Positions 16,453 to 34,352 of a stretch of DNA of 44,095 bases are shown here, piece after piece. The DNA is from Candidatus Abyssobacteria bacterium SURF_5 (lineage in GTDB: Bacteria > Abyssobacteria > SURF-5), in NCBI GenBank assembly GCA_003598085.1, contig QZKU01000101.1:1-44095 (forward strand), in the 5' to 3' direction. The notes beneath the pieces are model-generated. The model had not been told where the DNA came from and did no database searches. It was given only the letters and a program-made list of their open reading frames with translations. Both the position numbers and the translations under genes were made by a program. How positions within the stretch are numbered: position 1 is the stretch's first letter; the number at the start of each line of letters is the position of its first letter.

Positions 16453-18921
16453 ATGAACGACGAGTATAATTTCCGGGAAATCGAGCCGAAATGGCAGCGA
16501 TATTGGCGGGAAAACAAGCTGTTCAAGATGGATGAAAGCTCGCCAAAGCCGCCGTTTTACTGTCTGATGATGTTCCCGTATCCGTCGGCCGAGCTGCACG
16601 TGGGCCATGGGCGCAATTACATCATCGGCGACGTTCTGGCGCGTTACAAGTTCATGAAGGGCTTCAATGTGCTGGCGCCGATGGGGTGGGACGCCTTCGG
16701 GCTTCCGGCCGAGAACGCCGCGATCAAGAGAAACATACATCCGGCGGTCAGCACGTGGGAAAACATCCGCCGCATGAAGAAACAGCTCACGAACTGGGGC
16801 GTCGAGTACGACTGGGACCGCGAGTTCGCCTCGTGCGAGCCGCTGTACTGCAAATGGACGCAGTGGCTGTTCCTCCAATTTTACAAGAAGGGGCTTGCAT
16901 ACAAGAAGAAGGCGGCGGTCAACTGGTGCCCATCGTGTGCGACCGTGCTGGCGAATGAGCAGGTGATCAACGGCGAGTGCGAGCGCTGCGGAACCGGCGT
17001 GACCACGCGCGACCTGGAGCAGTGGTTTTTCAAGATAACCGCGTATGCCGAGGAACTGCTCGACATGAGCCATCTCGGGAACTGGCCCGAGCGCGTCAAG
17101 ACGATGCAGAGCAACTGGATCGGGAAAAGCCACGGCGTGACCATCCAGTTCAAGGTTGCGGAAACCGGCGAGCCTGTCCCCTGCTATACCACCCGGCCCG
17201 ACACCGTCTTCGGCGTTACCTATCTGGTGCTCGCGCCCGAACATCCTCTCGTCGAGAAGCTGACGCGCGGCACTGCGATTGAGAAGGAAGTCAGCGATTT
17301 CGTCGAGCGCTGCCGCCGGCTCGACCGGATCAAGCGAACATCGGCCGAACTCGAAAAAGAGGGCATGTTCATCGGCAAGCATATCCTTAATCCGGCCAAT
17401 GGCGAACGTGTTCCCCTGTGGATAGCGAATTACGCGCTGATGGAATACGGGACCGGCGCGGTCATGGCCGTTCCCGCTCACGACCAGCGCGACTTCGAGT
17501 TCGCAAAGAAGTACGGTTTGCCGATTCGCGTCGTGGTGCAAAAACCGGACGGCAGTCTCCATGAAGATACCATGACCGCCGCCTACGAAGATGAAGGCGT
17601 CATGGTCAACTCCGCCCAATTCAACGGCAGGCCGAGCGGCGAGACCATCGAGAAGATCGGCGTCTGGATGGAGGAAAAAGGCATCGGCACGCGCACTGTC
17701 AATTACCGCCTGCGCGACTGGCTGATCTCGCGACAGCGCTATTGGGGCGCGCCGATCCCGATTGTATATTGCGAGAAATGCGGAATGGTCCCCGTTCCCG
17801 AGGAGCAGTTGCCCGTCTATCTGCCGGAGGACGTCGAGTTCAGGCCGACCGGCGAATCTCCGCTCGCGCGCAGCGCCAAGTTCGTCAATACAACGTGTCC
17901 CGCCTGCGGCGGACCCGCCAGGCGCGAGACCGACACAATGGATACCTTCGTCGATTCGAGTTGGTATTACATGAGGTACCTCTCGCCGCACGACGAGCAG
18001 AAGGTTTTCGATTCGGCGCTGGTGAATAAATGGCTGCCGGTCGACCAGTACATCGGCGGCATCGAACACGCGATTCTGCACCTGATGTACTCGCGCTTCT
18101 TTACGAAAGTGATCCGCGATCTCGGACTGATCGATTTCCACGAGCCGTTCCACAACCTGTTCACGCAGGGCATGATCATCAAGGGCGGCGCGAAAATGTC
18201 GAAATCGAAGGGCAACGTCGTCGCGCCCGACCCGCTCATCGAAAAATACGGCGCCGACACGGTCCGCGTTTATACGCTGTTCATCGGCCCTCCGGACAAG
18301 GATGCCGAATGGAACGACCGCGCGGTCGAGGGCGCGTTCCGCTTCCTCAATAGAGTGTGGAGACTGATCGTTCCGCATGCGGGCCGCCTGCAGAACACAG
18401 ACGGAGCGATCCCGAAGGACCTGAATGAAACCGAGCGCGACCTGAGGCGCATTGCTCACGCTACGACAAAAAAAGTGACCGAGGATATCGAGGAACGCTT
18501 CCATTTCAACACCGCCATCAGCGCGTTGATGGAACTGGTGAACGCGCTGTATTCGGCGGATCTCGAGCAGGTTCGGCCGGTCGTGCTGAAAGAGATTTTC
18601 GAAAAGCTGGTGGCGTTGCTGTATCCGATGGCGCCGCACATAAGCGAGGAACTGTGGTCGCGCCTCGGGCACACGCAGAGCCTGCTTCGCGAAGCGTGGC
18701 CCGCATTTGATTCCCGCGCCATCAAAGCGGAAGAAATGGTCGTCGTCATCCAGGTTAACGGCAAGGTGCGCAGCCGCGTCACCGTCTCTTCCGATTCGAG
18801 CGAAGAGGAGCTGAAAAAGGCCGCGCTGAATGATTCGAAAATCGTGGATTTTCTCGACGCAAAAACAGTCGAAAAGGTGATTGTTGTCCCCAGGAAACTG
18901 GTGAATATTGTCGCGAAATAG
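16453..18921 (+). CDS. leuS: Leucyl-tRNA synthetase
   Basis: This 822-aa class I synthetase charges tRNA-Leu with leucine in the cytoplasm. It has the HIGH motif variant H49-V-G-H52, a Cys4 zinc finger (CPSC...CERC at about 161-180), and the CP1 editing domain with TTRPDT and a [12 protein letters not shown] segment. A second Cys cluster (CEKC...CPAC) follows, then the K581-M-S-K-S585 loop and a C-terminal anticodon-binding part ending in [10 protein letters not shown]. The length fits bacterial LeuRS. I chose the ATG at 16453 ([11 protein letters not shown]) because the sequence becomes family-like exactly there; the upstream ORF extension overlaps the amidohydrolase. The ribosome site is weak. 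The following gene overlaps its end. Confidence 0.97.
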
Positions 18922-21214
18922 ATCGGCACACAAAAGAGTTGCGGTTATTCTTCGGCCAAAGAGCATACGTTTGCTTGGAGCCGTCGCCCTCCTGCTCCTG
19001 ATCGGTTTCCGCTCCGGGCATGCCGATGCCACGGTCGCGCCCGAATACGCTGCCGGCTACACGATAGGCGCGGGTAAAAATCCCCACGACATCTTAGCGA
19101 CACGCGACGGCCGCTATGTTTATGTTGCGGGTTTCGGGGCGGATAATCTCGCCATTATCGATCTCGAGAAACAAAAAACCATTTCCACCGCTCCTGCCGG
19201 CGACGGCCCGATTGCGCTTGCCATTGCGAGTGATAACTCGTTCCTTGCAGTCGCGAATTTCTTTTCGAACGACGTGTGGTTTCTCGCGCCGCAAACGGAT
19301 ACCGTCGAATCGAAGATCGAAGTTGCAGAAGGTCCGATCGCGCTTGCCTTATCCGCCGACGACCGCACGCTGTACGTTGCGAATGTGACCGGGCGAAGCA
19401 TCAGCGTCATTGATACTGCCTCGCGTCAAGCCGCGGCGGTTTTTCCTCTTGAAGACTATCCGCAAGGACTGGCAATATCGCCGGACGGCAAACGCCTCTT
19501 CGTATCCATGCGCGAGCGCGGCTCGATTCTCGAATTGAACGCATCGACCGGCGAAATCGTTCGCAGCCTGACTACCGGCGGCTATCCGCGCGGACTTGCG
19601 CTTTCACCCGATGGCTCGCTCCTGTTTGCGGCCGATTACGAAGCGGGCGGTTTGATCGTTGCCGATACGGCCGCCTTCGTCGTAGCGCGTGAGGTGAAAA
19701 CGGGGGACGGAGCGGCTCGCGTCGCTGTCGCCCCTGAGGGCGAGAAGATTTTCGTCGTCAACTCAAAAGCGCGTAGCATCAGCATCATCAGGCTGCCGGA
19801 TTTTTCCATTTCGACGGTTGCGCTCGATTCGCGTCCTGCGGCGATCAGCTATGTTCCCGAGCGCCAGACAGCTTTTGTTTCCTTGAGCGACGCGAACGAG
19901 GTTGTGGCTTTAACCGCCAAAACGTCCCCGCCCCCATCGGCCGCCGTTTTTGAAGAGCCGGTCCAGGCGCTTCAGCCGCAGACGGCTCTCGCAGCGGCCG
20001 TGCCTGCGCCTGAATTCGCTCCGATCCTTGAGGACTCGATTTCTCTTCCGCCTGTGGCAGAAAAAGCTTCCTCCGCGACAGTCACACCATTAAAGGAACC
20101 GGGGAAACCGTCGCTCGCGCCTGTGGCCGATAGTGCTCGAAAGGAGACGCGCCCGGTGTCAGTCAAGCCTCCGAGCGGGGCCGGCGAACCGGTACTCGAG
20201 CCGAGCAAATGGGTGCATTCGGGACGCGCCGGCGCGGAGCGCAGAGAAATCGCGCGGCTGGTGCCGCCACTGGATGAAAAGACGGAACTGGTGGAACAGA
20301 AGCGAGGCGCGCTCGGGATTGGCGCATCCGCAATATTTATTATCAATGAGGATAGCCGCGAAATTTCGATCGTGGATGGGCGCTCGCTTGAACGAGTCTC
20401 GAGCCTGGTGCTCAAAGACCGGCCCGAAGGAATCGCCGTGGACGCGAACGGAAATCTCCTCTATCTCACCGTTCGATACAGTGACATGCTTTATGCGGTC
20501 GACATCCAGACGGGAGAAGTCCGCTCAAAAGTTGCGGTTGGCTCATATCCACGCGGCGTGGCGGTTCATCCGGACGGGCGGACGGTATACGTGGCAAACG
20601 AAAACGACGGGACCATCTCGCTGGTGAGCATGCCGGCCGGCGAAGTGAGCGGGGACGTTAAGGTCGGCGAAAAACCGATGTGCCTCGCCATTTCACCCGA
20701 CGGCAAAATGCTGTATTGCCTGAACGCGTTCTCGGGAACCGTCTCGATGATAGATACCGCCAAGCGTGAAATCGCATCCACAATCAAAGTGGGAAAGGCT
20801 CCCCGCTCGATAGCCGTCTCTCCCGACGGCCGCCTGTTTGTCAGCGACTCGATAGGCGATCAGGTGGTTGTTCTTCAGCCGGGAAAATTTGAAACGGCAT
20901 CTGTTACGGTTGGAGATCGTCCCGAAGACGTTGCCGTCTCTCCCGACGGCCGCTTTCTGTTCTGCGCAAATTTCCTGTCAGAGACGATATCTGTTATAGA
21001 TGCTAAAACTCTGTCGGTGGTTCGCGAAGTCCCGACAGGAAGCGGGCCGAGCGGGATCGCAGTCAGCCCGGACGGACACTACCTGTACGTTTCGAATCGG
21101 CTTGATAATACGGTGTCTGTAATGGACGCGCGGGATTGCGCTGTCCTTGAAACGGTTCCGATCGGCCAAGGGCCGACCCGGATGTTGGTCTTTGCAAGTC
21201 CCCACAAGAATTAA
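18908..21214 (+). CDS. Exported double YVTN/NHL-type beta-propeller protein
   Basis: This 768-aa protein has an N-terminal hydrophobic signal ([12 protein letters not shown]...A-D-A). Two sets of beta-propeller repeats follow, each blade showing the pattern S-P-D-G-x-x-hydrophobic-Y-V-A-N, as in YVTN surface-layer or WD40-like proteins. The first set covers about residues 45-335 and the second about 465-765. A Pro/Ala-rich low-complexity linker (about 337-460) separates them. It is probably periplasmic or surface-exposed and may be a scaffold or binding protein. The start is uncertain: the TTG at 18908 overlaps the end of leuS by 14 bases and no clear ribosome site is seen. The next gene starts 5 bases after the stop, so it belongs to the cell-wall unit. 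No enzymatic motif is seen. Confidence 0.8.
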
Positions 21215-21219
21215 ACTCC

Positions 21220-23073
21220 ATGGCCAAGCAGACTGGAAATATATACTGCGCTCGTGGAGTCGCCTTCGCGGCCATTTTGACTTCCGGCGCTGCCGCAATC
21301 CTCTCGTTGTTCCTGCTTTCAACCGAAGCCTTCGCGTGGGGACCACGCGCCCACTCTCAGATCGCTGAATTCGCGCTTTCTTCGTTGTCGGCCAGACACA
21401 GCAGAACTCTGCTGCTCTATAAAGAGGACCTGCTCGAGGGAGTTTCCAACGGGGTCGCCAACCGGCATGCACCCGGCGCCGACACCGATCTTACCGCAGA
21501 TATCCAACTGCTGATGCTCATCCCTCACAAGAATGAGAACCTTTCTCGTTATTTCGCATATCGACTGGGCGAACTCAGCGTAGTCGTCTCGGATTTCGCG
21601 CTGCCGCCCGCCCCGAGCAACGCCACAAACATCGAGATACGAAGAAAGCTCGAAGCGGATATCGACAGTGATGTGACCAATTACCGCGTTTATAATATCC
21701 AACCCGCCAATCTCACGTATCCGGTTCTCCATCTCGAGCGCGTCCGCAGTGAAGCGCAGAAATCGGAGAGCTTCGTGAAGACACGGTATCTGGCCGGTGG
21801 AGGATACAAAGCATGCAAGGACGACCTGATTGCGTCGGCGTTCCAGAATGCCGTCCAAACGGTTTCCAGTGTATGGGAAACCATTCTGTCGAGAGACCCG
21901 GCGCCTGGCTCAATCTCGCCGCCGATCCGGGTTATGTACTACACCAGTCAAATAAAGTTTGCGTCCGAACGCAATTATCTCGATGATATCGAATCGGCGC
22001 TTAAAAAATTGTCGGAAGAGGGGAGGAAAATTCCTCTCACCTCAACTTTTGTCGGAGATGCCTTCTTCAAGCTGCCGCCCGGCGACAAGACGAGGGACAT
22101 TTACGAGCTCGCCTGCGCCGTTGACCCGCAATCTTCGGCTATCGCAAATTGCCTGAAGCAATGCACCGAAAAGATGGCAAGAGCTCCGGTAGAAATTCAG
22201 CCGTCCAATGAAAAGAAACGCAGGCTTCCCCGTTACCTGTACGGCGAAAATGGAAAACCGCCGATTTACGTGTATCAGCACACCTCGGGTTTGCTGCTGC
22301 TCACGAGCAAGGTGAAAGACGTCGGCCCCGACTATGTGCTGCTGAACTTCGAGCCGATTAAGAAGATCACGAAGACCCAGGTCGTCCGCAAGGTCAAGAA
22401 TGAGCCGGAAGTCGAGGAGTTCGATCTCGAGGAAATCATTCGCTTCTATTCGAAAGATTATGGCCTGCATCCCGCCCTGGTCAAGGCCGTGATCAAGTGC
22501 GAATCCGACTTTGATCCGTTCGCGGTCTCTCATTGCGGGGCCCGCGGCTTGATGCAGCTCATGCCGATGACGGCGATGGAGATGCAGGTGCAGGATAGCT
22601 TCGATCCGGAGCAGAATATCGGCGGAGGCGTACAGTATCTGGCCCGAATGCTCGAACTGTTTAACAACGATCTGGAGCTCGCGCTGGCCGCTTATAATGC
22701 GGGGCCGGGAAGCGTCTTGAAATACGGAGGCATTCCTCCATTCAAAGAAACGCGGGCGTATGTGCCGAAGGTCATTTCTTATTACGAGCGATATAAGAGG
22801 AATTCGAAACCGGTGACGCTGAAAGTTGCTCTGAAGAAAAAGCCTGCGGCCGATTTTCTGCCGGAAGTCGAAGTCGTCGAAATGGTCGAAGTCGAAACCG
22901 TTGTGGCTTCGCCACCCCTGCCGCCGCCGCCTGCCGACAAGGTTATTGTCGTCCTGAAAAACGGAAACACGATGCGCGGCAATTCCTATGAGAAGATAGA
23001 AAACGGCATCAGGCTAATACTGGAAAACGGCTGGGTCGACATTAAAAGCGAGCACATAACGAAGATCAGTTGA
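21220..23073 (+). CDS. Lytic transglycosylase with SLT domain and N-terminal nuclease/phospholipase-like domain
   Basis: This 617-aa exported protein starts with a hydrophobic signal segment (to about residue 40). A region beginning WGPRAHSQIAE is reminiscent of zinc-dependent phospholipase C/S1-P1 nuclease folds, with conserved-looking Trp and His. The SLT (LysM-type transglycosylase) domain is at about 405-525: catalytic E428 in IKCESDFDP, then GLMQLMP and AYNAGPG. This domain cleaves the MurNAc-GlcNAc bond of peptidoglycan to give 1,6-anhydroMurNAc ends. The tail holds a small KNGNTMRG/GWVDIKS repeat-like domain. The stop overlaps the next gene's start by one base (TGATG). The anhydro products match the AnmK kinase found downstream. 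Confidence 0.85.
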   Translation: MAKQTGNIYCARGVAFAAILTSGAAAILSLFLLSTEAFAWGPRAHSQIAEFALSSLSARHSRTLLLYKEDLLEGVSNGVANRHAPGADTDLTADIQLLMLIPHKNENLSRYFAYRLGELSVVVSDFALPPAPSNATNIEIRRKLEADIDSDVTNYRVYNIQPANLTYPVLHLERVRSEAQKSESFVKTRYLAGGGYKACKDDLIASAFQNAVQTVSSVWETILSRDPAPGSISPPIRVMYYTSQIKFASERNYLDDIESALKKLSEEGRKIPLTSTFVGDAFFKLPPGDKTRDIYELACAVDPQSSAIANCLKQCTEKMARAPVEIQPSNEKKRRLPRYLYGENGKPPIYVYQHTSGLLLLTSKVKDVGPDYVLLNFEPIKKITKTQVVRKVKNEPEVEEFDLEEIIRFYSKDYGLHPALVKAVIKCESDFDPFAVSHCGARGLMQLMPMTAMEMQVQDSFDPEQNIGGGVQYLARMLELFNNDLELALAAYNAGPGSVLKYGGIPPFKETRAYVPKVISYYERYKRNSKPVTLKVALKKKPAADFLPEVEVVEMVEVETVVASPPLPPPPADKVIVVLKNGNTMRGNSYEKIENGIRLILENGWVDIKSEHITKIS

Positions 23074-25373
23074 TGCTATCGTTCATTCGCACCGCCAGGA
23101 AAATCCGTCCCCGTCGTTCCTCCTTCCTTCTTTTCCGGCCTTCCTTTCTTTTCATGCTGATTGTGTGCCTGCTCAGCGCGAGTGCTCTCTTGAGCTGTGG
23201 AAAAAAGCAGAATCCGCTCACAATCAAGATATGGGAGTATCCGCGCTGGCGCGAGGATGATCAATCGGTCGATCGCTTTTATTGGATCAAGCAACAGATA
23301 ACGGAGTTCGAGCGGCTCCATCCCGGCGTATCGATCGAGCTGACCGAGCTGACTTGGGAACACGGTGAAGATAAAAAAAAGATCGCCATCACCGCCGGCG
23401 TCGGACCGGATATCATAACAGGGGTTCTACCGGTCCAGCTTATCGAAGGTGGATTCATCGAATCCATCGATGATCACCTCACGCAAGAGGACCGCAGTGA
23501 TTTTCTCGCGCCGGCACTGGAATCCTTCACTTACAATGGCAGACTCTATGGAGTGCCCTGGTACGTCACCGGCTCGGTCCTGTTCGCAAACCTCGACTTG
23601 CTCGAGCAGTGCAAGCTGGAGCTTCCTCGGGACGGCTGGAACCATCCCGAATTTCTCGAGTTTACCCGGCGGCTCACGCGCTGCGGCGGCGACGGCCGCT
23701 CTGATGCCGCGGGATTTGCTTTCCTCTTGCGCCCCGGCGACACGGGGGTCTGGCCTTTCCTTTTTCCCGACGGAATGGCTTTAGATGAACAGATCTTACC
23801 CCGAGGCTTAGGCGATGCGGCCAACGCCACGTTTCTCTACAACCTTGTTCATGCGGCTCGAGTGGCCCCGGCCGACTGTGCGGCCTGGGACGCGGAGACT
23901 CTGTGGCAGCGCTTCGTCGCGCAAAAAAACATAGCGATCGCGCCCCTCGGTATCTGGGCAGTCCCGCGCCTACACGCATTGGGCGATTTCCGATTCGACG
24001 TGCTGCCGTATCCCGCTCCTTCAGGAAACGAGACGGCCGCACGGGCATTTATCGGCACATCCGGATTTGTGGTGCTGCGCCAGGACGACCCCCAAAAGCG
24101 CCGGCTGTGTATCGAATTCGCGAAGTTTCTCGTTCGTCCCGATGCGCAAAGAGACCTGAGGACATACGGGGTGATCCCTTCACGCCTATCTGCGGGAACA
24201 ATATATGCGGACGACGCAGTAATGTCGAAAGTCCAGCGGATTCTATCCGCCGGACAGACAGTACCGCGGCATGCTCAATGGGCCAAAATCGACGAAAAAT
24301 ATCAGAGAGAGCTCCAATTGGCTTTTCTCGGAGAAAAATCGCTGATGTCGGCAGTGGCTTCTGGCGGTAAGGAGATTGAAGCACTTATTAAAACGGCTCA
24401 CGAAAGACAAGCTCCCGAAGGATCCAAAGCATCCTTTAAATCCGTCGCGATTGCCACCGCCGCACTTTTTTGTGCAATCCTGCCCGTCTTGTACCTGGTT
24501 CGCCGCCGACTCGAATCACTTTCTGCCTACGCCTTTCTTTTCCCTGCACTTGCGATTTTTGCAGTTTTTCTGCTGTTTCCGCTTGTCTGGGTCCTACTGC
24601 TCACTTTCCAGGACTTCACTTTCGCACAGGCTCGACCGAGTTGGGTGGGATTTCGAAATCTTGCCGCGGCTGTCAATGACCCGGTATTCCGCCAAGCGGC
24701 GATAAATACCCTCGTCTATACCGTGGTCGTTGTGCCTGTCAATGTTGTCTCGGCTTTAGTGGTTGCGAGCCTGATCTGCCCGCTGTCAAACCGGGTGCGC
24801 GGATTCTTCCGGGGGGCCTATTATCTGCCGGGTGTCGCGTCGGTCGTGGTGTTGACAATGGCGTGGCGATGGATGTTCAATGAGAGTTTTGGAATCCTCA
24901 ACGCCGGTTTGGGATTTTTCGGTCTGCCCGGCGTGCACTGGTTGACCGATTCGCGTATCGCCTTGTGGAGCGTGATCTTAACCAGTATCGCACGGCCTCC
25001 AGGCGGACCGGTGCTCATCTATCTCGCTGCTCTTGACGCAATACCGAAATCGCTTTATGATGCGGGAGAATTGGATGGCGCGAGCGCATTCAGCAAATGG
25101 TGGCATCTCACTCTTCCATTGCTGCGACCGACAACGCTGTTTCTTGCGCTAACGATAACGATTGCCTCATTTCAGGTTTTTACCCAGGTTTTCATTCTGA
25201 CGGACGGTGGTCCGGGATATGCCACCGAAGTTGTCGCACATCGGATTTATACCGCGGCCATTCGAGATTTTGAATTCGGAGTGGCCGCCGCAATGTCGGT
25301 GCTCCTGTTCGCAATCATCATGCTGGCATCAATCGTGCAATACCGTTTTTTTAGATCTGACGTCGAATACTAA
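23073..25373 (+). CDS. ABC sugar transporter: binding protein fused to a MalF-type permease
   Basis: The 766-aa protein fuses two normally separate subunits. Residues 1-42 form a lipoprotein signal with lipobox LLSC (C42), followed by a family 1 extracellular solute-binding domain to about residue 430 (LTIKIWEYPRW, GPDIITG, YGVPWYV, MALD and C-terminal DDPQKRRLC segments). From about residue 455 there are multiple membrane segments of a MalF-like permease, with the EAA-loop DAGELDGASAF near 662. It couples to a second permease gene 18 bases downstream. No ATPase is nearby, so a shared MsmX/MalK-like ATPase encoded elsewhere is needed. Sitting in a cell-wall operon, it may import murein sugars or muropeptides (inference). 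The start at 23073 overlaps the upstream stop. Confidence 0.85.
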   Translation: MLSFIRTARKIRPRRSSFLLFRPSFLFMLIVCLLSASALLSCGKKQNPLTIKIWEYPRWREDDQSVDRFYWIKQQITEFERLHPGVSIELTELTWEHGEDKKKIAITAGVGPDIITGVLPVQLIEGGFIESIDDHLTQEDRSDFLAPALESFTYNGRLYGVPWYVTGSVLFANLDLLEQCKLELPRDGWNHPEFLEFTRRLTRCGGDGRSDAAGFAFLLRPGDTGVWPFLFPDGMALDEQILPRGLGDAANATFLYNLVHAARVAPADCAAWDAETLWQRFVAQKNIAIAPLGIWAVPRLHALGDFRFDVLPYPAPSGNETAARAFIGTSGFVVLRQDDPQKRRLCIEFAKFLVRPDAQRDLRTYGVIPSRLSAGTIYADDAVMSKVQRILSAGQTVPRHAQWAKIDEKYQRELQLAFLGEKSLMSAVASGGKEIEALIKTAHERQAPEGSKASFKSVAIATAALFCAILPVLYLVRRRLESLSAYAFLFPALAIFAVFLLFPLVWVLLLTFQDFTFAQARPSWVGFRNLAAAVNDPVFRQAAINTLVYTVVVVPVNVVSALVVASLICPLSNRVRGFFRGAYYLPGVASVVVLTMAWRWMFNESFGILNAGLGFFGLPGVHWLTDSRIALWSVILTSIARPPGGPVLIYLAALDAIPKSLYDAGELDGASAFSKWWHLTLPLLRPTTLFLALTITIASFQVFTQVFILTDGGPGYATEVVAHRIYTAAIRDFEFGVAAAMSVLLFAIIMLASIVQYRFFRSDVEY

Positions 25374-25391: not shown

Positions 25392-26213
25392 ATGAGATTC
25401 CGAAAAAATGAGGTCCTCTTGGTGTCGCTCCTCTTGCTGGGAGCAGTGATTTCGCTGTTTCCGGCATTGTGGATGCTGTATTCTTCGTTCCGCCCGAACG
25501 AGGAACTGAGCTCGATTCCGCCAATGCTCCTGCACCGGAGCCTGACGACGCAGAATTACGCGCAACTCCTTTCCAGCGCGCCTGTTATACGCTGGACAGT
25601 CAACTCCTTCTTCATCTGTGCAATCATTACACTCGGGCAACTGCTGTTCGATAGCATGGCGGGATATGCCTTTGCGAAAAAGAAGTTTGCCGGCCGCCAA
25701 TTGCTTTTCTGGCTGGTCATCGGGACTATGATGGTGCCGGTCCACATCCTGATCGTGCCGCTGTATATTATGATGGTCAAACTGCATCTTGTGGATACTC
25801 TTTGGGCCGCAATCCTGCCCGGGCTTGCGGGTTCATTCGGCATCTTTTTCATGAGACAGTTCATTTCCACGATTCCGACCGCTCTTGAAGAAGCCGCACG
25901 AATGGACGGCTGCAGCGAGTTCCAGGTTTTCTTTCGAATTATTCTTCCGCTGTGTGCACCCGCACTGGGAGTCCTCGCCATTTTCCTGTTCATATCGAAT
26001 TGGAATTCTTTTCTCTGGCCGCTCTTGGTGCTGAATAGCGCGCAAACATACACGTTAACTGTCGGGCTCGCGACTTTGCAGGATAAACAGACGCTAGATT
26101 ACGGCCTGCTGATGGCCGGCGCCGTGCTCGCTTCGCTTCCGATGTTCATTGTCTTCATAATGTTCCAGCGCTGGTTTGTGCAGGGAATGAGAATAGGTGC
26201 TATCAAAGGCTAG
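25392..26213 (+). CDS. ABC sugar transporter permease, MalG type
   Basis: This 273-aa polytopic membrane protein has about six membrane segments, an N-terminal segment starting RKNEVLLVSLL, and the EAA-loop EEAARMDGCSEF (about residue 163) that contacts the ATPase. It matches MalG-type inner-membrane permeases of carbohydrate ABC importers. It pairs with the upstream binding-protein/permease fusion to make the heterodimeric channel. The next coding sequence begins 19 bases later at a TTG codon. The substrate is not evident from sequence; the operon's enzymes suggest cell-wall sugars. Confidence 0.88.
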   Translation: MRFRKNEVLLVSLLLLGAVISLFPALWMLYSSFRPNEELSSIPPMLLHRSLTTQNYAQLLSSAPVIRWTVNSFFICAIITLGQLLFDSMAGYAFAKKKFAGRQLLFWLVIGTMMVPVHILIVPLYIMMVKLHLVDTLWAAILPGLAGSFGIFFMRQFISTIPTALEEAARMDGCSEFQVFFRIILPLCAPALGVLAIFLFISNWNSFLWPLLVLNSAQTYTLTVGLATLQDKQTLDYGLLMAGAVLASLPMFIVFIMFQRWFVQGMRIGAIKG

Positions 26214-26232
26214 AAACAGGGAGGAACCATCT

Positions 26233-28059
26233 TTGGCGCTGAAAAGGAATCATATTGTTTTTTTGCCGTTCGTCCTTTTGCTGTTTTTCGCGTGTGCCCG
26301 GCGGCAGACTGCTGTTGCGCCGCCTTCGCCAGTCGACGATGGACCGGTGGTCGAAGAGAGTTGTGTTGCGGAACCCGTTCCTGATCAGACCGCCGCAGAT
26401 GCAGATGCTTCCGACGTCGGAGAGGAGCTTATTGAGGCGGTGGATGAAGCGCTGATTGAAGAAGTGACTGATGAGGAGGCGGATGAAGGGACCGATGAGG
26501 AGATCCAGGTCGTCGAGCCGAAGAAGATCGAGCCGCGGGAAGCGTTCGTCGAACCTACCCTGAAAATCCAGATACTCAAGGAGGCCGACTCTATACTCGT
26601 AACAAGCGAATCAGAAATGTACCTGAATTTCGATAGCAAGACGATGAAAGTGGAGCCCGGCCGCCGGATTCGGTTCAGGTTGCGCAGCGCGCGTGTGGGC
26701 GTTCAAATGTATCCGGTCGGCGTTGCAACTTTTCGCGGGTCCGAATACGAGAAGGCCTTGCAGTTCGCCGAGAAATGGAAAAGCGACGGCTACACTGTGC
26801 GTCTCATTAAAGCGGGGGGTCCTTTCGTCCATGCCGACGGCTCGGTCATGGATACCACGGTCTATTGGGTGGCACTCGGCAGCTTCAAGAAGAAGGCGGA
26901 CGCCGAGGCTTTTCGGGATAAGATGAACAGGTGGGGCCATTCGGCCTGGATCATCGACGAAAGCGTACTTAATCCCAAGGGGAACATCGAGATTCTGGAC
27001 GGCACCGATACTGTCTATTCGTATGCCGATTCGCATGTCGCTTTGACTGCGGATCAGCCTATCGAGGTGCATAATGTCCCCTTCGGAGACGGCTTCTGGG
27101 TCTCGGGCAACTGCGAAAACAGGCGCTATATCAGCCCGCTCGAAATTTTCATCGATAAGCACGGCAAACTGTCCGCGATAAACCTGGTGACACTCGAGGA
27201 ATACGTGAAGGGCGTTGTTCCCGTGGAGATACGGCTGAACGCGCCGGATGAGGCGCTGAAGGTGCAGGCGATCGCAGCGCGCACGGAAGCGCTTGCCAAA
27301 CTGGGAATCAAACATGTGTTCGACCCGTTCGACTTTTGCGCTTCTCAGCATTGCCAGGAATTCGGCGGATTGGCGCGGCGCACTGTCCGAACCGATGCCG
27401 CAGTGGATGCAACGCGTGGATTGGTCCTCATGAGAGAGGGCCGGTTGATCGACGCCGTCTACAGCGCCAACTGCGGGGGACATACCGAACACAATGAAAA
27501 CGTCTGGAGCTCTCGCCCCGCTGCATCGTTGCGCGGCGTCTCTGAATTGTTCAGCAACCCTGAATCCTTCGACTCCCCGCTTAAAGATTCACAATTGGCG
27601 AGCTGGCTGAAATGCACGCCGCGCGCATACTGCGCCGATCCGCGCGCCGGCAGCTCAAAGAATTTTCGCTGGCATGTCAGCTTTACCGCAAAGCAGATGA
27701 ACGCCGCCGTCAACAAATACTACAAAGTCGGCACGGTGAAGGACATCAAAGTCCTCAAGCGAGGCGTGTCGGGGCGCGCCCTCAGAGTCAGAATCGTCGG
27801 CTCGCGCGACATCGCCGTCATTTACAAAGAGCTTGAGATACGGCGTGTCTTGGGCAAACTGAAAAGCACCATGTTCGTTCTGGAAATAAAAAAAGATTCG
27901 GCCGGGAATCCCGTCAGGTTCAATTTCCTCGGCGGTGGATGGGGGCACGGCGTCGGCATGTGCCAGGCAGGCGCCGAGGGAATGGCCCTCCAGGGATTCC
28001 AGCATGACGCGATCCTGAAACACTACTTCACCGGCGCTGAAATAGTCAAATTGTACTAG
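26233..28059 (+). CDS. SpoIID/LytB-type lipoprotein with SPOR-like region
   Basis: This 608-aa protein starts at a TTG, chosen because GGAGG lies 7 bases upstream; the alternative GTG at 26197 lies inside the preceding permease gene. Its N-terminus is a lipoprotein signal (LLFFAC). A Glu/Asp-rich linker follows (about 30-110). Next is a SPOR-like region, with TVRLIK and WVALGSFKKKADAEAF at about 190-240, that could bind glycan strands stripped of peptides. The SpoIID domain follows, with catalytic E332 in VVPVEI, ARTEALAKLG, and C-terminal GGGWGHGVGMCQAGAEGMA. SpoIID enzymes are lytic transglycosylases on denuded peptidoglycan. It is probably anchored at the inner or outer membrane, facing the periplasm. 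NamZ starts 7 bases downstream. Confidence 0.88.
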   Translation: MALKRNHIVFLPFVLLLFFACARRQTAVAPPSPVDDGPVVEESCVAEPVPDQTAADADASDVGEELIEAVDEALIEEVTDEEADEGTDEEIQVVEPKKIEPREAFVEPTLKIQILKEADSILVTSESEMYLNFDSKTMKVEPGRRIRFRLRSARVGVQMYPVGVATFRGSEYEKALQFAEKWKSDGYTVRLIKAGGPFVHADGSVMDTTVYWVALGSFKKKADAEAFRDKMNRWGHSAWIIDESVLNPKGNIEILDGTDTVYSYADSHVALTADQPIEVHNVPFGDGFWVSGNCENRRYISPLEIFIDKHGKLSAINLVTLEEYVKGVVPVEIRLNAPDEALKVQAIAARTEALAKLGIKHVFDPFDFCASQHCQEFGGLARRTVRTDAAVDATRGLVLMREGRLIDAVYSANCGGHTEHNENVWSSRPAASLRGVSELFSNPESFDSPLKDSQLASWLKCTPRAYCADPRAGSSKNFRWHVSFTAKQMNAAVNKYYKVGTVKDIKVLKRGVSGRALRVRIVGSRDIAVIYKELEIRRVLGKLKSTMFVLEIKKDSAGNPVRFNFLGGGWGHGVGMCQAGAEGMALQGFQHDAILKHYFTGAEIVKLY

Positions 28060-28066: not shown

Positions 28067-29218
28067 ATGCACACTGCTCAGCCGGTCACACTCGGCGTCA
28101 GTCGCTTACTCCAATACGAGCGCAAACTGCTCGAGGGCGCCCACGTTGGCCTGATCGCGAATTCAGCCGCGAGAAATGAAAAAGGCGTCCCGACCGCGGC
28201 GGCACTGATCGGGAACGGAATCAATCTCAAATGCATTTTCGCGCCCGAGCACGGATACGATGTAAGCGCTCCACCCGGCCAGCATCTTGCCGATTCGATT
28301 GAGCCTGGTTCCGGCCTGCCGATCCGCAGTCTGTACGGCAGCGCAAAGGAGCCTACCGGCGAAATGCTGCGCGATGTGGATGCGCTTGTCTTTGATTTGC
28401 AGGATATCGGTGTGCGCTGCTACACCTATATCTGGACCATGGCGCTCGGCATGCGTGCCGCGGCAATGTACGGAAAATTGTTTGTTGTGCTCGACCGGCC
28501 GAATCCACTCGGGGGAATTACCATTCAGGGCCCGGTTCTGGATCCGCGGTTCGCTTCCTTCCTCGGGCTTTACCCGATCCCGCTGAGGCATGGGATGACG
28601 GCAGGAGAACTGGCCTTGCTGTTCAATAAAGCATTCGGAGTGGGCGCACATCTCGCTGTTGTCAAAATGCATGGATGGCGCAGGCGCCTGCTTTTTTCCG
28701 ACACCGGCCTCGCGTGGACGGCGCCCTCACCCGCAATAGTGTCGCCGGAAACCGCGCTACTGTATGCGGGCACGTGCCTGTTTGAAGGCGTTAATCTCTC
28801 CGAAGGGCGCGGCACATCCTCGCCGTTCCGCCTGATCGGTTCGCCGTGGCTCGATCCGGCGATCGTGAACAAGCTCGATCCGAAAACAATGGCAGGCTTT
28901 GCAGTTTCTCCTCAGCGTTTTACGCCTGCCGCCTCGAAATACAGCGGGAGAGAATGCGCAGGCATTGCTCTTGCCGCCGTCGACAAGAACGCTGCGGACC
29001 CGATTGCGCTTGCAGTCGAGCTGCTGTCGAAAATCACGGCGCGCCATTCTCGGGAGTTGCAGTGGAACGAACAACATTTCGATGCGCTTGCAGGAACGGA
29101 CTCGCTTCGGAAAGACATCCTCGCCGGGCAAACAACCGAAGAAATTCTGGGCGGATGGGTGAAAGACCAGCGTGAATTCGAAGCGTTGCGCGGACCATAT
29201 CTCTTATACGAGGGATGA
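28067..29218 (+). CDS. namZ: Exo-beta-N-acetylmuramidase family protein (DUF1343)
   Basis: This 383-aa protein has the DUF1343/NamZ hallmarks: VGLIANSAA, FAPEHGY, DLQDIGVRCYTYIWTM, VLDRPNPLGG, and EGVNLSEGRGTSSPF. NamZ-type enzymes remove MurNAc from the non-reducing end of peptidoglycan fragments. No signal peptide is seen, unlike the secreted Bacillus NamZ, so this copy is probably cytoplasmic and would act after import. It sits 7 bases after the SpoIID gene and 3 bases before NagZ, in a recycling operon. Confidence 0.85.
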   Translation: MHTAQPVTLGVSRLLQYERKLLEGAHVGLIANSAARNEKGVPTAAALIGNGINLKCIFAPEHGYDVSAPPGQHLADSIEPGSGLPIRSLYGSAKEPTGEMLRDVDALVFDLQDIGVRCYTYIWTMALGMRAAAMYGKLFVVLDRPNPLGGITIQGPVLDPRFASFLGLYPIPLRHGMTAGELALLFNKAFGVGAHLAVVKMHGWRRRLLFSDTGLAWTAPSPAIVSPETALLYAGTCLFEGVNLSEGRGTSSPFRLIGSPWLDPAIVNKLDPKTMAGFAVSPQRFTPAASKYSGRECAGIALAAVDKNAADPIALAVELLSKITARHSRELQWNEQHFDALAGTDSLRKDILAGQTTEEILGGWVKDQREFEALRGPYLLYEG

Positions 29219-29221
29219 CAA

Positions 29222-30769
29222 ATGACATCGTTGCGGGAAAGGATCGGCGAGCTCTTCATGATTGGATATCCCGGAACCGATCCGTCCGCCGCGAGCGACC
29301 TGATTCAGCGCCACCATGTCGGCGGTATCATCCTCTTCACCAGGAATATCCGCAATGCCGCTCACGCCCGCGAGGTCTGCCTGCATCTGCAGGAATTGCG
29401 CGCGCGGGTGAGCGATATGCCGCTCTTTATCGCGATCGACCAGGAAGGCGGCTGCGTCGCGCGGATAACCGAAGGGGTCACGATCTTCCCGGGCAACATG
29501 GCGCTCGGAGCGACCGGTTCAGAAGAATTCGCGCGACAGGCAGGACGGGTAACCGCGCGCGAACTCGCGGCGCTCGGCATCACCGTGAACTTTGCGCCGG
29601 TCCTCGATATCTCAACGCTTCCGCGAAATCCAGGCGTCGGAGCGCGCTCGTTCGGCTCCGATCCGGCGATGGTGAGCCGGCTCGCCTCAGCTATGATTTC
29701 CGGCTTGCAGGAGAACGGGCTCTGCGCCGCCGCCAAACATTTCCCCGGACTCGGCGAAGCAAGAATCGATTCGCACGACGATCTGCCAGTGGTCGATCAT
29801 CCTCGCGCGCGAATTGAGAAAGTCGAGCTGGCGCCCTTCCGGGCCGCTGTCAAAGCCGGAGTCGCTTTTGTGATGACCGCACACTGTTCGTTTCCCGCAT
29901 TGGATGAGACCGGTGCGCCGGCCACGTTGTCCGCACCTCTCTTGAAAGACCTGCTACGCGGCCGGATGAAATACGAAGGCGTCGTGATCACTGATTGCCT
30001 CGAGATGGGCGCCGTTGAAAAACGGTACGAGGCGCCGCAGTCGGCGCGACTTGCCTTTCACGCCGGAGCGGATATGCTGCTTATCTGTCACACTCGAGAA
30101 AAACAGGTCGCCGCAATCGATTCGCTCGCTCGCTCGGCCGAAACCGGTGAGATCGATGAAGAGAGAATTGATCAATCGTCGGCCCGAATCCGATCTATAA
30201 AAGAGAACCTGAAAAATATCCCGGCCGAGTCCGCTTATACTCCGCAGACAAAACTAAGCGAAGAGATCGCAGCACGGGCGGTGACACTGGTACAGAATGA
30301 AAACAATTTCGTTCCTTTGCGGCTGCGGCACTCGGATCGGCTGGTGGTGGTCACGCCGCGGTTCGAAGTGCTGACAAAGGTGGAGGACGCCGCTCAGCAC
30401 AACAAAGGATTCCTGAATGAGGTCAAGCGGTTCCATCAGAATCTCACACATCTCGAAATATCTGTCCGACCGGATGCCGGTGAAATCCGCCGGACAATTG
30501 AAAAATGCGCGAATGCGGATGTATTAATCATTTTGACATACAACCTCCATTTGAACCCGCCCCAGCGCGAGTGCGTGCAGGCTCTGCTTGACCTCGGGAG
30601 ACCGGCTGTCGTGGCCGCCGTTCGCGACCCGCACGATCTTGCCTTCATCTCGGGCGCCGAAGCGACCATTGCAACGTACAGCTTCCGCAAATGCTCATTA
30701 AAAGCGCTTGCGGGTGTGTTATTCGGGAAAATAAAAGCTGAAGGAAGTCTTCCGATACGGCTTCAGTAG
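29222..30769 (+). CDS. nagZ: Beta-N-acetylglucosaminidase, GH3 family NagZ
   Basis: This 515-aa GH3 enzyme has a catalytic TIM barrel with KH173FPG, the NagZ-specific DSH185 dyad loop (IDSHDDLPVV), and the nucleophile D258 in VITDCLEMGA. It releases GlcNAc from GlcNAc-anhydroMurNAc or muropeptides. It is longer than the about 340-aa proteobacterial NagZ; the extra C-terminal part (after about residue 340) looks like a GH3 C-terminal domain, as in Gram-positive NagZ. No signal peptide is seen, so a cytoplasmic role is likely. AnmK starts 3 bases downstream and uses one product. Confidence 0.9.
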   Translation: MTSLRERIGELFMIGYPGTDPSAASDLIQRHHVGGIILFTRNIRNAAHAREVCLHLQELRARVSDMPLFIAIDQEGGCVARITEGVTIFPGNMALGATGSEEFARQAGRVTARELAALGITVNFAPVLDISTLPRNPGVGARSFGSDPAMVSRLASAMISGLQENGLCAAAKHFPGLGEARIDSHDDLPVVDHPRARIEKVELAPFRAAVKAGVAFVMTAHCSFPALDETGAPATLSAPLLKDLLRGRMKYEGVVITDCLEMGAVEKRYEAPQSARLAFHAGADMLLICHTREKQVAAIDSLARSAETGEIDEERIDQSSARIRSIKENLKNIPAESAYTPQTKLSEEIAARAVTLVQNENNFVPLRLRHSDRLVVVTPRFEVLTKVEDAAQHNKGFLNEVKRFHQNLTHLEISVRPDAGEIRRTIEKCANADVLIILTYNLHLNPPQRECVQALLDLGRPAVVAAVRDPHDLAFISGAEATIATYSFRKCSLKALAGVLFGKIKAEGSLPIRLQ

Positions 30770-30772
30770 GAT

Positions 30773-31930
30773 ATGAAACGACTGATCGAAATCGCCGGAC
30801 TCCGCAAGCGGCTGGTCGTTGGCCTGATGTCCGGAACATCCGCCGACGGGATCGACGCGGCGCTGGTCGAGATCGAGGGCGCATATACCGATACGAACGT
30901 CCGCGTGCTCGAGTTCGAAATCTATCCGTATCCGGAAGAAATCGCCGGCGCGGCGAGAAATCTTAAGGATGGCCAAACCCGGCAAGTCTGCGAGATGAAT
31001 TTTCGGCTCGGCGAGCTCTTCGCGCAGGCGGCATTGAATATCATAGAGAAGGCCGGCCTGAAGCCGGCTGACGTGCATCTTATCGGGTCGCATGGACAGA
31101 CGATTTACCATCTGCCGGATGCTCCGCCGCCCGCTCGCTCGACGCTCCAAATCGGAGAGCCGTGCGTGATCGCCGAGCGTACCGGCATCGTTACCGTCGC
31201 GGATTTCCGCACGCGCGACGTCGCCGCCGGCGGATACGGCGCCCCGCTTATCCCCTACGCCGACTTCCTCCTGTTCAGAAAACCCGATAAGGTGCGGGCG
31301 CTGCAGAACATTGGCGGCATCGCTAATGTCTCCGTTGTTCCGCCGGCGCAGCAGGATGTGTTCGCGTTCGATACCGGCCCGGGCAACGCATTGGTTGATG
31401 AGTTCGTCCGCATAATCACCGGCTCAAAGGAACACTTTGACACAAACGGCGCTCGCGCAAGGAAAGGTCGCATTCAGAAAGATATCCTCGAGGACCTCCT
31501 CGAACATCCTTATTTCGACGCGCCGCCCCCGAAAACGACGGGCCGCGAGCTATTCGGGCGGGAACTTGCTCAAAAGCTTGCGGCCGCGACACCGGCGAAG
31601 AACCACGCCGACATGCTGGCAACGCTGACGGCGCTGACCGCGCATTCCATCAAGCTGAGCTATGAGCGATTCGTTTTCCCGAAAACGAATGTCGACGAGG
31701 TCATTCTCAGCGGAGGTGGCTGTCGGAATGTTTATCTGGTAGAATTACTGCAAAGGATTTTTGCGCCGATTCCCGTCACTCTTACCGATGCGTACGGTGT
31801 CTCGGCTGACGCGAAGGAAGCAATCGGTTTCGCGCTTCTCGCGAATGAAACGATAAGTGGAAACCCCTCCAATCTCCCTTCGGCGACGGGGGCATCACAC
31901 GCAGTTGTGCTGGGCAAAATCATCTTGTAA
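30773..31930 (+). CDS. anmK: Anhydro-N-acetylmuramic acid kinase
   Basis: This 385-aa ASKHA-fold kinase opens with GLMSGTSADGID (about 19-30), the family hallmark. It continues with IGSHGQTI, DFRTRDVAAGGYGAPL, FDTGPGNALVDE, and SGGGCRN. It converts 1,6-anhydroMurNAc to MurNAc-6-phosphate in the cytoplasm, the step after NagZ. The MurQ etherase for the next step is not in the window. An AGGAT sequence lies just before the ATG, and the gap to NagZ is 3 bases. Full length. Confidence 0.95.
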   Translation: MKRLIEIAGLRKRLVVGLMSGTSADGIDAALVEIEGAYTDTNVRVLEFEIYPYPEEIAGAARNLKDGQTRQVCEMNFRLGELFAQAALNIIEKAGLKPADVHLIGSHGQTIYHLPDAPPPARSTLQIGEPCVIAERTGIVTVADFRTRDVAAGGYGAPLIPYADFLLFRKPDKVRALQNIGGIANVSVVPPAQQDVFAFDTGPGNALVDEFVRIITGSKEHFDTNGARARKGRIQKDILEDLLEHPYFDAPPPKTTGRELFGRELAQKLAAATPAKNHADMLATLTALTAHSIKLSYERFVFPKTNVDEVILSGGGCRNVYLVELLQRIFAPIPVTLTDAYGVSADAKEAIGFALLANETISGNPSNLPSATGASHAVVLGKIIL

Positions 31931-31946
31931 CGGCTGGGGAAATCAA

Positions 31947-34352
31947 ATGAAAAAGAAAGCTGCATCTCGACTTCCTTGCATCTCTATTTCTCTCGTTCTT
32001 GCGAGTCTTACTCTCGGCGGCTGTGCGCGCCAGGTTGTCGTCACACCGCAAGCGGCTCTGGATTACGGCCAGATCACCCTTCGGCAGGCGCCACCGAACA
32101 TCGACGTGAGCGCACTGCGCGGCAGGCGAATTGTGCTCGATCCCGGTCACGGCGGCTCATTTGTGGGCGCGATCGGTCCGAACAATCTGCGCGAGGCCGA
32201 CGTGAACCTGGGTGTCGCGCTGTACCTGTGGGGGATGCTCACGCAGGCGGGCGCTGAGGTGCACCTGACCCGGACAGACGATTCGAACGTATACAAGGCT
32301 GCCGATATCGAAGTGAAAAAGGACCTGCATGCGCGCGTTGAATTCGCTCAGGCGCATGATCCTGATTTGTTCGTGTCGCTGCACCATAACGCCGACGTGC
32401 TTCCGGGCGCAAAGCGAAATTCGCTCGAGACGTATTTCAAAATGAAAGACCCCGGCCCTTCGCTCGACGCCGCACAGCATATACATAAGCAGCTTGCGCT
32501 CAGCCTGAATCAACCGGATAATGCGATTTTGCCCGGCAACTACCACGTGCTGCGCGAATTCGCCGGGCCGGCAGTTCTGGGCGAGCCCTCATTCATATCT
32601 CATGCCTTCAATGCATTCCGGCTGGGGCTCGCGCCCACGCAGCGAGTCGAGGCGCAGGCTTACTTCCTTGGAATAGCCGAATATTTTGCGAAGGGCGTCC
32701 CGAAAGTCGAGATCATCGAGCCTCTGGCGGCATCTCCCAACGACGCCCGCCCGATGATCGTGGCGCGGGTGACGGCGGACCGTGGAGTTCCGATTGATCC
32801 CGCCTCAATCGAGATGCGGATCGATGGCGCACCTGTTTCCGCCACGTTCGATCCGGCCTCTTCACTTGTTCACTACTTGCCCGAACGGCGATTCAGCAAC
32901 GGGAATCACACCGTCGATATCTCTTTGCGCAATGTCAATGGCAATGCTGCGCGAACGGCCGCAACGGAATTTGACGTCGTAATGCCGCCGGCATATATCC
33001 TTCTTGATACGAATATTCGCACGGTTCCGCTCAACAACAAACAGCAGGTGAGGCTGGCGGCAAAAATTTTTGATGCCGATGCCATGCCGATCGCCGATGG
33101 GACCCGAGCGGAATTCACCGCGAGCGAGGGGCTGTCCTCGCCGGCCGTCTCGTATACAACCGGCGGCGAGGCGATAGTGTACCTGGCTCCCGGTGGTGCG
33201 GGAGGGCCAAGGACAATCAACGCGTCCATTCGTGCCGGCGATCTGTCGCATAACGTCAACCTCTACGTGCGCGACGATGCGCCCTCCTTCTCGGTTTTCC
33301 ACGTGTTTGATGCGACACGAAACGCACCGGTCGCGAATGCCCTTGTCACCGTAGATGGCCGGCCGCTCGGCTACACCGACCGCGCGGGATATTTTGCCGC
33401 CGGCGCCGGAGAAATCAGCGGCTCTTTCCTCACCGTATCAGCTCCAGGATACATACCCAGAACCGTTGATTGCGCGAGCCTTGCGAAACCTTCCTTTGTT
33501 AAACTGAAGCCGATCGCCGACGGCCTCTTGTTCGGAAAGAAAATCGCGATCGACCCTCAGCTTGGCGGCGAGGAAAAAGGTCAGACCGGCCCCACCGGCG
33601 TTCGCTCGTCTGACCTGAATCTGCGGGCGGCCCGATATCTCGCGGAGTTTCTCAAAGCGTCAGGCGCTCAGGTCGTGCTCACGCGCGAATCCGATATGAC
33701 CGCGACACTGTTGCGCCGGGTGGAGCTTGCAGAGCAATCCGCCGCCGAACTCTTCATCTCTATCGGGCACGGAGGTCTTGTGCTGAGTCCATTGAACGGG
33801 GAATCCGCCGGGGCAGAAACGCGCCCGGCTGATGCCTATTCACTGCATTATCCAAACAGCAAGGACGGGGCGCGGCTGGCCGCCACAATTGCCGGGCATA
33901 TCGAAGTGCTCGGAGTTGCCCAACGGGCGCTGGTTCAACCGGCCACTGATTTCGTGCTGACGCATACGGCGGCGCCGGCAACCATTGTCGCGCTTCCCGG
34001 CCCGTCATCGGCCGAAACCGAAGACCGCCTCCGCGACCCCGACGTGGCGCGGCGAGAGGCATATGCCGTTTACTGCGGCATCCTTGAATACATCGGACTC
34101 GAAAAGGAGCGGACGGGTCGCCTCGTCGTTCGGGTGCGTGGGGAAGATAAGTCTGCTCCTGCCTTGATTACGCTCGATGGCGCGCTCACGGTCCGGTGTG
34201 CAAGCGGCAGCGACTTCACCTTCAGGTGCCTTGCGCCGGGAGAACACCGGCTGCAAGTCCTGACCGGCGGAAAGACAATTCAGGATTATACCGTTGTCAT
34301 AGAGGCTAATCAGACAGCCGTCGCGGAAGTGGTGATCACCGCTCTACAGTAA
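31947..34352 (+). CDS. N-acetylmuramoyl-L-alanine amidase lipoprotein with a second, degenerate amidase domain
   Basis: The start at MKKKAA gives a lipoprotein signal (lipobox LGGC); the longer frame overlaps anmK. The 801-aa protein has a first amidase_3 domain (about 50-245) with zinc ligands H68 (DPGHGG), E83 (NLREAD) and H146 (SLHHNA). This enzyme class cuts the MurNAc-L-Ala bond. A beta-rich middle region (about 250-530) includes Ig-like or carboxypeptidase-regulatory-like segments. A second amidase_3-like domain (about 535-715) aligns with the first, but its ligand positions read L539 (DPQLGG), S554 (RSSD) and G607 (SIGHGG), so it is probably inactive. A final small domain follows. It is probably periplasmic and membrane-anchored. 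It is the last gene of the cell-wall unit. Confidence 0.88.
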   Translation: MKKKAASRLPCISISLVLASLTLGGCARQVVVTPQAALDYGQITLRQAPPNIDVSALRGRRIVLDPGHGGSFVGAIGPNNLREADVNLGVALYLWGMLTQAGAEVHLTRTDDSNVYKAADIEVKKDLHARVEFAQAHDPDLFVSLHHNADVLPGAKRNSLETYFKMKDPGPSLDAAQHIHKQLALSLNQPDNAILPGNYHVLREFAGPAVLGEPSFISHAFNAFRLGLAPTQRVEAQAYFLGIAEYFAKGVPKVEIIEPLAASPNDARPMIVARVTADRGVPIDPASIEMRIDGAPVSATFDPASSLVHYLPERRFSNGNHTVDISLRNVNGNAARTAATEFDVVMPPAYILLDTNIRTVPLNNKQQVRLAAKIFDADAMPIADGTRAEFTASEGLSSPAVSYTTGGEAIVYLAPGGAGGPRTINASIRAGDLSHNVNLYVRDDAPSFSVFHVFDATRNAPVANALVTVDGRPLGYTDRAGYFAAGAGEISGSFLTVSAPGYIPRTVDCASLAKPSFVKLKPIADGLLFGKKIAIDPQLGGEEKGQTGPTGVRSSDLNLRAARYLAEFLKASGAQVVLTRESDMTATLLRRVELAEQSAAELFISIGHGGLVLSPLNGESAGAETRPADAYSLHYPNSKDGARLAATIAGHIEVLGVAQRALVQPATDFVLTHTAAPATIVALPGPSSAETEDRLRDPDVARREAYAVYCGILEYIGLEKERTGRLVVRVRGEDKSAPALITLDGALTVRCASGSDFTFRCLAPGEHRLQVLTGGKTIQDYTVVIEANQTAVAEVVITALQ

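Follow-up and report, generated by a model that had tools for sequence, protein, structure and literature searches.

Contig QZKU01000101.1 of Candidatus Abyssobacteria bacterium SURF_5 (44,095 nucleotides, called here the window; contig C101 of a 5.1 Mb genome, 98.5% complete) carries nine genes on its + strand behind leuS, at positions 18908-34352. We analyse them here as a candidate operon for the salvage of peptidoglycan sugars through an ATP-binding cassette (ABC) importer. Protein families were assigned with Pfam and NCBIfam models at the models' own cut-offs, and conservation was followed by tblastn of the window proteins in three genomes of the phylum (G000, G001 and G002), which represent three genera of one family and are 91-98% complete. 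The preceding gene, leuS, encodes leucine-tRNA ligase (16453-18921, +, TIGR00396; likely start 16453); it precedes the block also in G001 and G002 and lies outside the pathway. Counted from leuS, neighbouring genes are separated by -14, 5, -4, 18, -17, 7, 3, 3 and 16 bases (negative values are overlaps), the last gap being measured to the likely amidase start at 31947. Gene calls and gaps of at most 18 bases thus bear out the tight nine-gene operon behind leuS that an earlier reading of the sequence (the original prediction) had described.

leuS and the nine genes follow each other in identical order in all three phylum genomes, at about 39-75% identity outside leuS, a check that the original prediction had proposed. 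The block lies on one contig in G002 and is divided over the ends of two contigs in G001. The operon is real, and the conservation of its order exceeds chance. Of eight upstream window genes examined, none was found beside the block in G001 or G002, where about 2.5 kb and 13 kb upstream of leuS are visible, respectively. Among twelve flanking window genes, only a downstream AMP-ligase gene adjoins the block, and that in G001 only; the G002 contig stops directly after the amidase gene, and a weaker match (35%) sits at another place on it. Promoters and terminators are about as numerous here as in shuffled sequence (8 against 7.9 expected and 20 against 22.0 expected, respectively), and therefore the operon ends are not settled. 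A hydrophobic N-terminal segment is present in the propeller, SLT, importer, SpoIID and amidase proteins, three of which carry a lipobox-like Cys by eye. No such segment occurs in NamZ, NagZ or AnmK, as had been claimed earlier.

Enzymes encoded by the operon

The enzyme families named in the original prediction were recovered, with two additions: the first gene, left unnamed there, encodes a YVTN beta-propeller protein, and the SpoIID protein also carries a SPOR domain. The propeller protein (18908-21214) passes TIGR03866 (328.7 bits, cut-off 287.3) and TIGR02276, has a hydrophobic N-terminus and is probably exported; its counterparts in G001 and G002 are 39% and 43% identical. It is followed by an SLT lytic transglycosylase (21220-23073; PF01464, 99.3 bits), also with a hydrophobic N-terminus, whose SLT domain spans residues 406-513. 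The motifs GLMQLMP and AYNAG are kept in the three genomes, and the catalytic Glu is seen by eye (CESDF, AESDF). The first 400 residues or so of this protein (window 21220-22400) have no Pfam match at E 5, yet the protein aligns nearly over its full length in G001 and G002, at 53-55% identity.

The lipoprotein-like SPOR-SpoIID protein (26197-28059) has its SPOR domain at about residues 170-258 and a SpoIID/LytB domain at about residues 322-618, with PF08486 and TIGR02669 above cut-off. SPOR (PF05036) scores 28.4 bits in G002, 24.1 in G001 and 19.6 in the window copy, just under the cut-off of 21. In an AlphaFold2 (AF2) model, residues 171-260 reach block means of 55-84 pLDDT, with six of nine blocks at 77 or above; most of the remainder is poor, and the mean of the whole model is 47. 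A Foldseek search found nothing at E 0.001 or better; after re-alignment, the five best structures were the Burkholderia exported protein 6ozd (Z 10.1), CwlC (8.4), two SPOR structures of RlpA (8.1 and 8.0; that at 8.1 contains denuded glycan) and DedD (7.7), bearing in mind that a Z below 8 can reflect a common arrangement. The Pfam scores of the orthologues and the fold together establish that the SpoIID protein has a SPOR domain. SPOR domains bind glycan free of stem peptides, and stem peptides abolish the binding (PMC6895207); a SpoIID homologue cuts denuded glycan strands and, in vitro, acts together with an amidase (PMC6635528).

The last gene (31947-34352) encodes a lipoprotein-like N-acetylmuramoyl-L-alanine amidase in which PF01520 matches two stretches. 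The first Amidase_3 domain shows metal-site-like motifs (DPGHGG, HHN, LGEP) in all three genomes. In the second (window 33500-34200), DPQxGG replaces DPGHGG in all three, and this domain is therefore probably inactive; perhaps it serves as a binding or regulatory domain.

Three signal-less proteins complete the enzyme set. NamZ (28067-29218), of the exo-beta-N-acetylmuramidase family, contains both family domains (PF07075 NamZ_N, 246.1 bits; PF20732 NamZ_C, 150 bits), and muramidase activity is predicted for it. NagZ (29222-30769), a GH3 beta-N-acetylglucosaminidase, matches PF00933 and the PRK05337 equivalog (230 bits, cut-off 207). It keeps KHFPGxGxxxxDSH in the three genomes, which we take to be the Asp-His loop motif of GH3 NagZ, and its best match among solved structures is 6k5j. 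In B. subtilis NagZ and NamZ (the latter presumably the product of ybbC) are exported, unlike the signal-less proteins of this operon. AnmK, the 1,6-anhydro-N-acetylmuramic acid kinase (30773-31930), scores 363.5 bits with PF03702, passes NF007148 (482, cut-off 387) and, narrowly, NF007142 (435.9, cut-off 435), and falls short of the cut-offs of the other AnmK models, the top-scoring of which gives 488.9 bits (cut-off 599). Its best PDB rows are levoglucosan kinase and then AnmK, and it is the single match in each of the three genomes.

A sugar-type ABC importer and its relatives

Between the SLT and SpoIID genes lie two importer genes. The first (23070-25373) encodes a 767-residue solute-binding protein (SBP) fused to a MalF-type permease, with SBP_bac_8 (82.7 bits), SBP_bac_1 and BPD_transp_1 matches. 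By hydropathy it consists of a lipoprotein-like sugar-binding domain (about residues 46-450), an extra membrane helix (about 454-479) and the MalF part (about 481-767); the extra helix would fit a binding domain outside and the usual orientation of MalF. The fusion is present in all three phylum genomes, the G001 copy being cut by contig ends. The second gene (25392-26213) encodes a MalG/UgpE-type permease (PF00528, 79 bits), 75% identical in G001 and G002. Membership in the MalFG-type (CUT1) sugar importers is supported by SBP_bac_8 and MalG above the Pfam cut-off, with the MalF half slightly below; this half also matches GlcT-type (107 bits) and UgpA-type permeases, both below their equivalog cut-offs. 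The closest binding proteins of known structure bind sugars and maltose (E 9e-13 or weaker). The ABC importer of the original prediction is thus confirmed, except that its binding protein and first permease are one polypeptide and that the operon contains no ATPase gene. An AF2 model of the fused protein (mean pLDDT 36) was not used, and a scan of genome contigs with the fused protein as query confirmed no relative.

All three phylum genomes contain an orphan MalK-type ATPase (in G000 at C145:38466-39551); its G002 and G000 copies share 62% and 58% identity, respectively, with the G001 copy. No ABC permease gene was recognised beside it in any of the three, the G002 contig ending just behind the ATPase gene. 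G001 yields no match besides it at E 1e-40, and no second OB_MalK protein either. By eye, G000 and G002 also contain a separate MalE-F-G-K set (L015:5826-9946 and L016:7619-11874). No such set was found in G001, and the orphan ATPase is therefore the only candidate seen there; judged from these sequences, it is the probable partner of the operon importer. In Streptomyces, the MsiK ATPase likewise comes from a separate gene, which is shared, and no cell-wall enzymes are known to lie beside its DasABC importer.

The importers named in the original prediction for murein fragments were looked for in the phylum. The AmpG model TIGR00901 matched none of the three genomes at E 0.001 (5/14 controls match, two of them above cut-off), and PTS_EIIC (PF02378), which we take to be the family of MurP, was found in none of the three and in 7/14 controls. 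The original prediction had named an AmpG together with an unconserved operon as counter-evidence; this combination does not hold, since AmpG was found in 0/3 genomes of the phylum and the operon in 3/3.

Relatives in other phyla were collected from a NamZ scan of GTDB contigs, which confirmed at least 576 relatives; the best 80 were used as loci, with up to 10 kb on either side. By a crude test NamZ lacks a hydrophobic N-terminus in 38 of these 80 loci, so that signal-less forms also occur away from importer clusters. In a Chloroflexi locus (L107), NamZ, a GntR-UTRA regulator, AnmK, SBP, MalF and MalG lie together. NagZ, NamZ, SBP, MalF and a MalG truncated at the end of its contig do so in an Anaerolineae locus (L079), and SBP, MalF, MalG and NamZ with a divergent NagZ in a Bacillota locus (L082). 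L187, a locus reached through the MalG search described below, combines a BadF-type kinase, AnmK, MurQ, a PF00144 protein (presumably of the AmiE family), SBP, MalF, MalG and an ATPase. In Neobacillus (L097, 791-11149), an RpiR-type regulator, SBP, MalF, MalG, MurQ, a PF00144 protein, NagZ and NamZ stand in one row; in Virgibacillus (L096, 6046-17257), a PF00144-like protein, NagZ and NamZ are on one strand and an RpiR-type regulator, MurQ, SBP, MalF and MalG on the other. In these two sets of MurQ, RpiR, PF00144, NagZ and NamZ, an ABC importer of MalEFG type takes the place that the phosphotransferase system (PTS) transporter MurP has in B. subtilis. In a planctomycetal locus (L074:29-6770), a sodium:solute symporter accompanies NamZ, a GKRP-type SIS protein, AnmK and MurQ, which hints at a further type of transporter. 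In L152, the importer is on the opposite strand with another gene between, and was labelled not linked. L092 was left out as ambiguous: a second importer lies about 2 kb from NamZ with an acetyltransferase-like gene between, and an RpiR-type regulator follows NamZ. The record of L187 and L092 (NZ_VTQV01000002.1) has 17 MalG matches at E 1e-40 in its genome, and its Bacillus subtilis title may be wrong.

With the window MalG as query, 84 matches were found in 24 of 49 NamZ-bearing genomes (from 50 of the 80 NamZ loci). Twenty of them were inspected in their genomic context, which for some was only 5-11 kb. Ranks 1, 2 and 4 are L107, L082 and L187, in clusters with NamZ and AnmK, NagZ and NamZ, and AnmK and MurQ, respectively. 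The remaining 17 contexts contained no NamZ, AnmK or MurQ by tblastn, and one distant GH3 match.

Three trees were built from near matches of the window importer and from NamZ neighbours, not from importers at large; the SBP tree took the loci with an SBP match at E 1e-5 plus L107, L096 and L097, placed by coordinates, the last two labelled as linked. The importers of the three phylum genomes, L079, L082, L107 and L187, which we call the core, are set apart by a single branch in each tree, with support of 99/98 for MalF (29 rows), 84/93 for SBP (21 rows) and 76/96 for MalG (28 rows, six core members since the L079 MalG is cut). This kinship with importers in other peptidoglycan-sugar clusters counts in favour of the route proposed below.

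The importer could instead carry another sugar (maltose-type, chitobiose or N-acetylglucosamine, GlcNAc) and be merely inserted into a cell-wall operon. MalFG-type importers are generic, the solved binding proteins nearest to the operon importer are those mentioned above, and the chitobiose importer DasABC-MsiK of Streptomyces, with its shared ATPase, is a known precedent for ABC import of an amino-sugar disaccharide, in that case a chitin product (PMC6167110). Against such an insertion, the gene order is conserved over three genera, the closest importers examined in other phyla also lie in peptidoglycan-sugar clusters, and neither AmpG nor PTS_EIIC was found in the phylum genomes. We consider it quite improbable.

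A proposed route for peptidoglycan sugars

According to the gene set, we think it fairly likely that the operon encodes a peptidoglycan-sugar salvage route which imports peptide-free glycan through an ABC sugar importer. The surface-tethered amidase would strip the stem peptides outside the inner membrane, the SPOR domain would hold SpoIID on the bare strands, and SpoIID and SLT would cut the bare glycan to short saccharides, part of which would carry 1,6-anhydro-N-acetylmuramic acid (anhydroMurNAc) ends. The fused binding domain may capture these saccharides, and MalF and MalG, powered by the MalK-type ATPase encoded elsewhere, would move them into the cytoplasm. There NagZ and NamZ would take GlcNAc and N-acetylmuramic acid (MurNAc) in turn off the non-reducing end, and AnmK would convert anhydroMurNAc to MurNAc-6-phosphate.

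The direction of the original prediction, from cleavage outside through import to breakdown inside, is retained here. Its cargo, anhydro-muropeptides, is not: the amidase and SPOR-SpoIID outside, NamZ inside and the sugar-type importer make peptide-free glycan the likely cargo, which in turn would explain why the operon has no AmpD step (AmpD was not searched in the genomes). If the cargo were stem-bearing muropeptides after all, the peptides would be cut by an unseen cytosolic amidase. SLT enzymes do act on ordinary peptidoglycan, and AmpD-type enzymes were outside the searches of the phylum genomes. However, SBP_bac_1/8 and MalFG mark the importer as sugar-type, the amidase carries a signal for export, and NamZ is described as acting on peptide-free MurNAc, so that we regard muropeptide import as improbable.

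The same chemistry could also serve for food, the peptidoglycan of dead or neighbouring cells being scavenged instead of the own wall being recycled. In L097, L096 and L187, importers of this type adjoin a MurQ that is over the cut-off, in the first two with an RpiR-type regulator by MurQ, and these clusters look catabolic. In the operon, however, Pfam and NCBIfam identified none of the nine genes as encoding a regulator, an outer-membrane transporter or a secreted muramidase. SPOR and SpoIID would point to the cell's own septal glycan, and the anhydro-specific AnmK would fit self-made anhydro ends. On balance, a scavenging purpose appears somewhat unlikely to us.

Several points weigh against the salvage of peptide-free glycan. 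Substrate binding and transport are read from sequence, and the comparison within the phylum comprises only three genomes. The MalF half scores 23.6 bits with BPD_transp_1, just under the Pfam cut-off of 26.4, no ATPase gene was recognised in the operon with Pfam or NCBIfam models, and the beta-propeller has no explained role in the route. Among the best 80 of at least 576 NamZ relatives, only seven loci have a MalG relative near NamZ. The support of the core clade falls below the starred level for MalG and SBP. Moreover, the importers of L096 and L097, in MurQ clusters, lie outside this clade; a "cell-wall importer" is thus not one lineage, and importers in peptidoglycan-sugar clusters were therefore probably recruited more than once.

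To the same side belongs the fate of MurNAc-6-phosphate, the product expected of AnmK, for which the MurQ and MurU tests recognised no consumer in the phylum genomes. For MurQ, which the original prediction had already failed to see, no match to TIGR00274 exceeds the cut-off of 302 in any of the three genomes (best 38 bits), while 5/14 controls are above it and the MurQ proteins of L074, L096, L097 and L187 reach 389-416 bits; seven of eight weak loci inspected read by eye as GmhA-, GlmS- or KdsD-like SIS proteins. For MurU, NF045761 is above cut-off in none of the three genomes but also in none of the 14 controls, Caulobacter included, so this cut-off is too strict to call absence; MurU is listed for Caulobacter (PMC11980594). 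In G000 the best MurU match reaches 244 bits as RmlA but 78 as MurU, and none of ten stronger APH matches (E at most 1e-10) lies on the contig of a MurU-like match, as an AmgK-MurU pair would.

Comparison with known recycling and import systems

The operon shares features with several known systems. As in E. coli recycling (AmpG-NagZ-AmpD-AnmK), lytic transglycosylase products would be handled by NagZ and AnmK inside; here, in contrast, no AmpG was found, the amidase step would lie outside and NamZ is added. Bdellovibrio reportedly has a maltose importer with MalE fused to MalF (described by Licht et al. in 2019), which likewise joins a binding domain to a MalF-type permease, whereas the fusion seen here belongs to a cell-wall operon. 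The B. subtilis cluster murQ-murR-murP-amiE-nagZ-ybbC (PMC5061867) also places NagZ and NamZ beside a wall-sugar transporter, but that transporter is MurP (PTS) and MurQ accompanies it; the operon has an ABC importer and AnmK, and no MurQ was found. In Waddlia, SpoIID and the amidase AmiA act on glycan strands in a non-sporulating bacterium as proposed here, and the part of the source available describes no importer or recycling operon with that pair (PMC6635528).

The original prediction had given AmpG and MurP as the known importers, a list that was incomplete, since the ABC importer YejBEF-YepA of Agrobacterium takes the place of AmpG in peptidoglycan recycling (PMC9790009). The cargo of YejBEF-YepA is muropeptides and its SBP gene lies away from the core, whereas the system described here has a sugar-type MalFG importer, an SBP fused to MalF and its enzymes in one operon; the two are set apart by description and by the sugar-type scores. 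ABC import of peptidoglycan fragments is thus already known, and the operon is a plausible variant of peptidoglycan recycling. A 2026 review, in the part available, names AmpG, MurP, MurT and peptide ABC systems but mentions no ABC importer of sugar type that takes up wall glycan (PMC13204101). Among the papers listed in our literature search, conducted largely without subscription papers and hence not proof of novelty, none deals by its title or the opening of its abstract with MalFG-type import of peptidoglycan glycan; the closest is on the chitobiose importer (PMC6167110).

It is tempting to go further and propose, tentatively and with more doubt than confidence, that a family of MalFG-type importers, spread over several phyla, is dedicated to stem-free glycan, with the SBP tethered in the present case. 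Such importers would serve a route without AmpG or MurP that strips outside, imports the bare chain and ends in a MurQ-independent use of MurNAc-6-phosphate. If this were true, two logics of recycling would exist: in one (AmpG, YejBEF) the peptide is imported along with the sugar, in the other it is stripped off first. Little is settled about how wall sugars enter bacteria that have neither AmpG nor MurP, and the operon offers a candidate importer, a probable ATPase and a predicted cargo; its relatives in Chloroflexi and Bacillota records would allow the same question of cargo to be asked there.

Elsewhere in the window, adjacent genes for GmrSD_N, DUF499 and AbiJ_NTD4 proteins (682-6715) look like an anti-phage defence stretch. 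A pyruvate-formate-lyase-like glycyl radical enzyme is encoded at 11917-14445 (-), and a selenocysteine tRNA (RF01852, 67.5 bits) lies at 41144-41238 (-).

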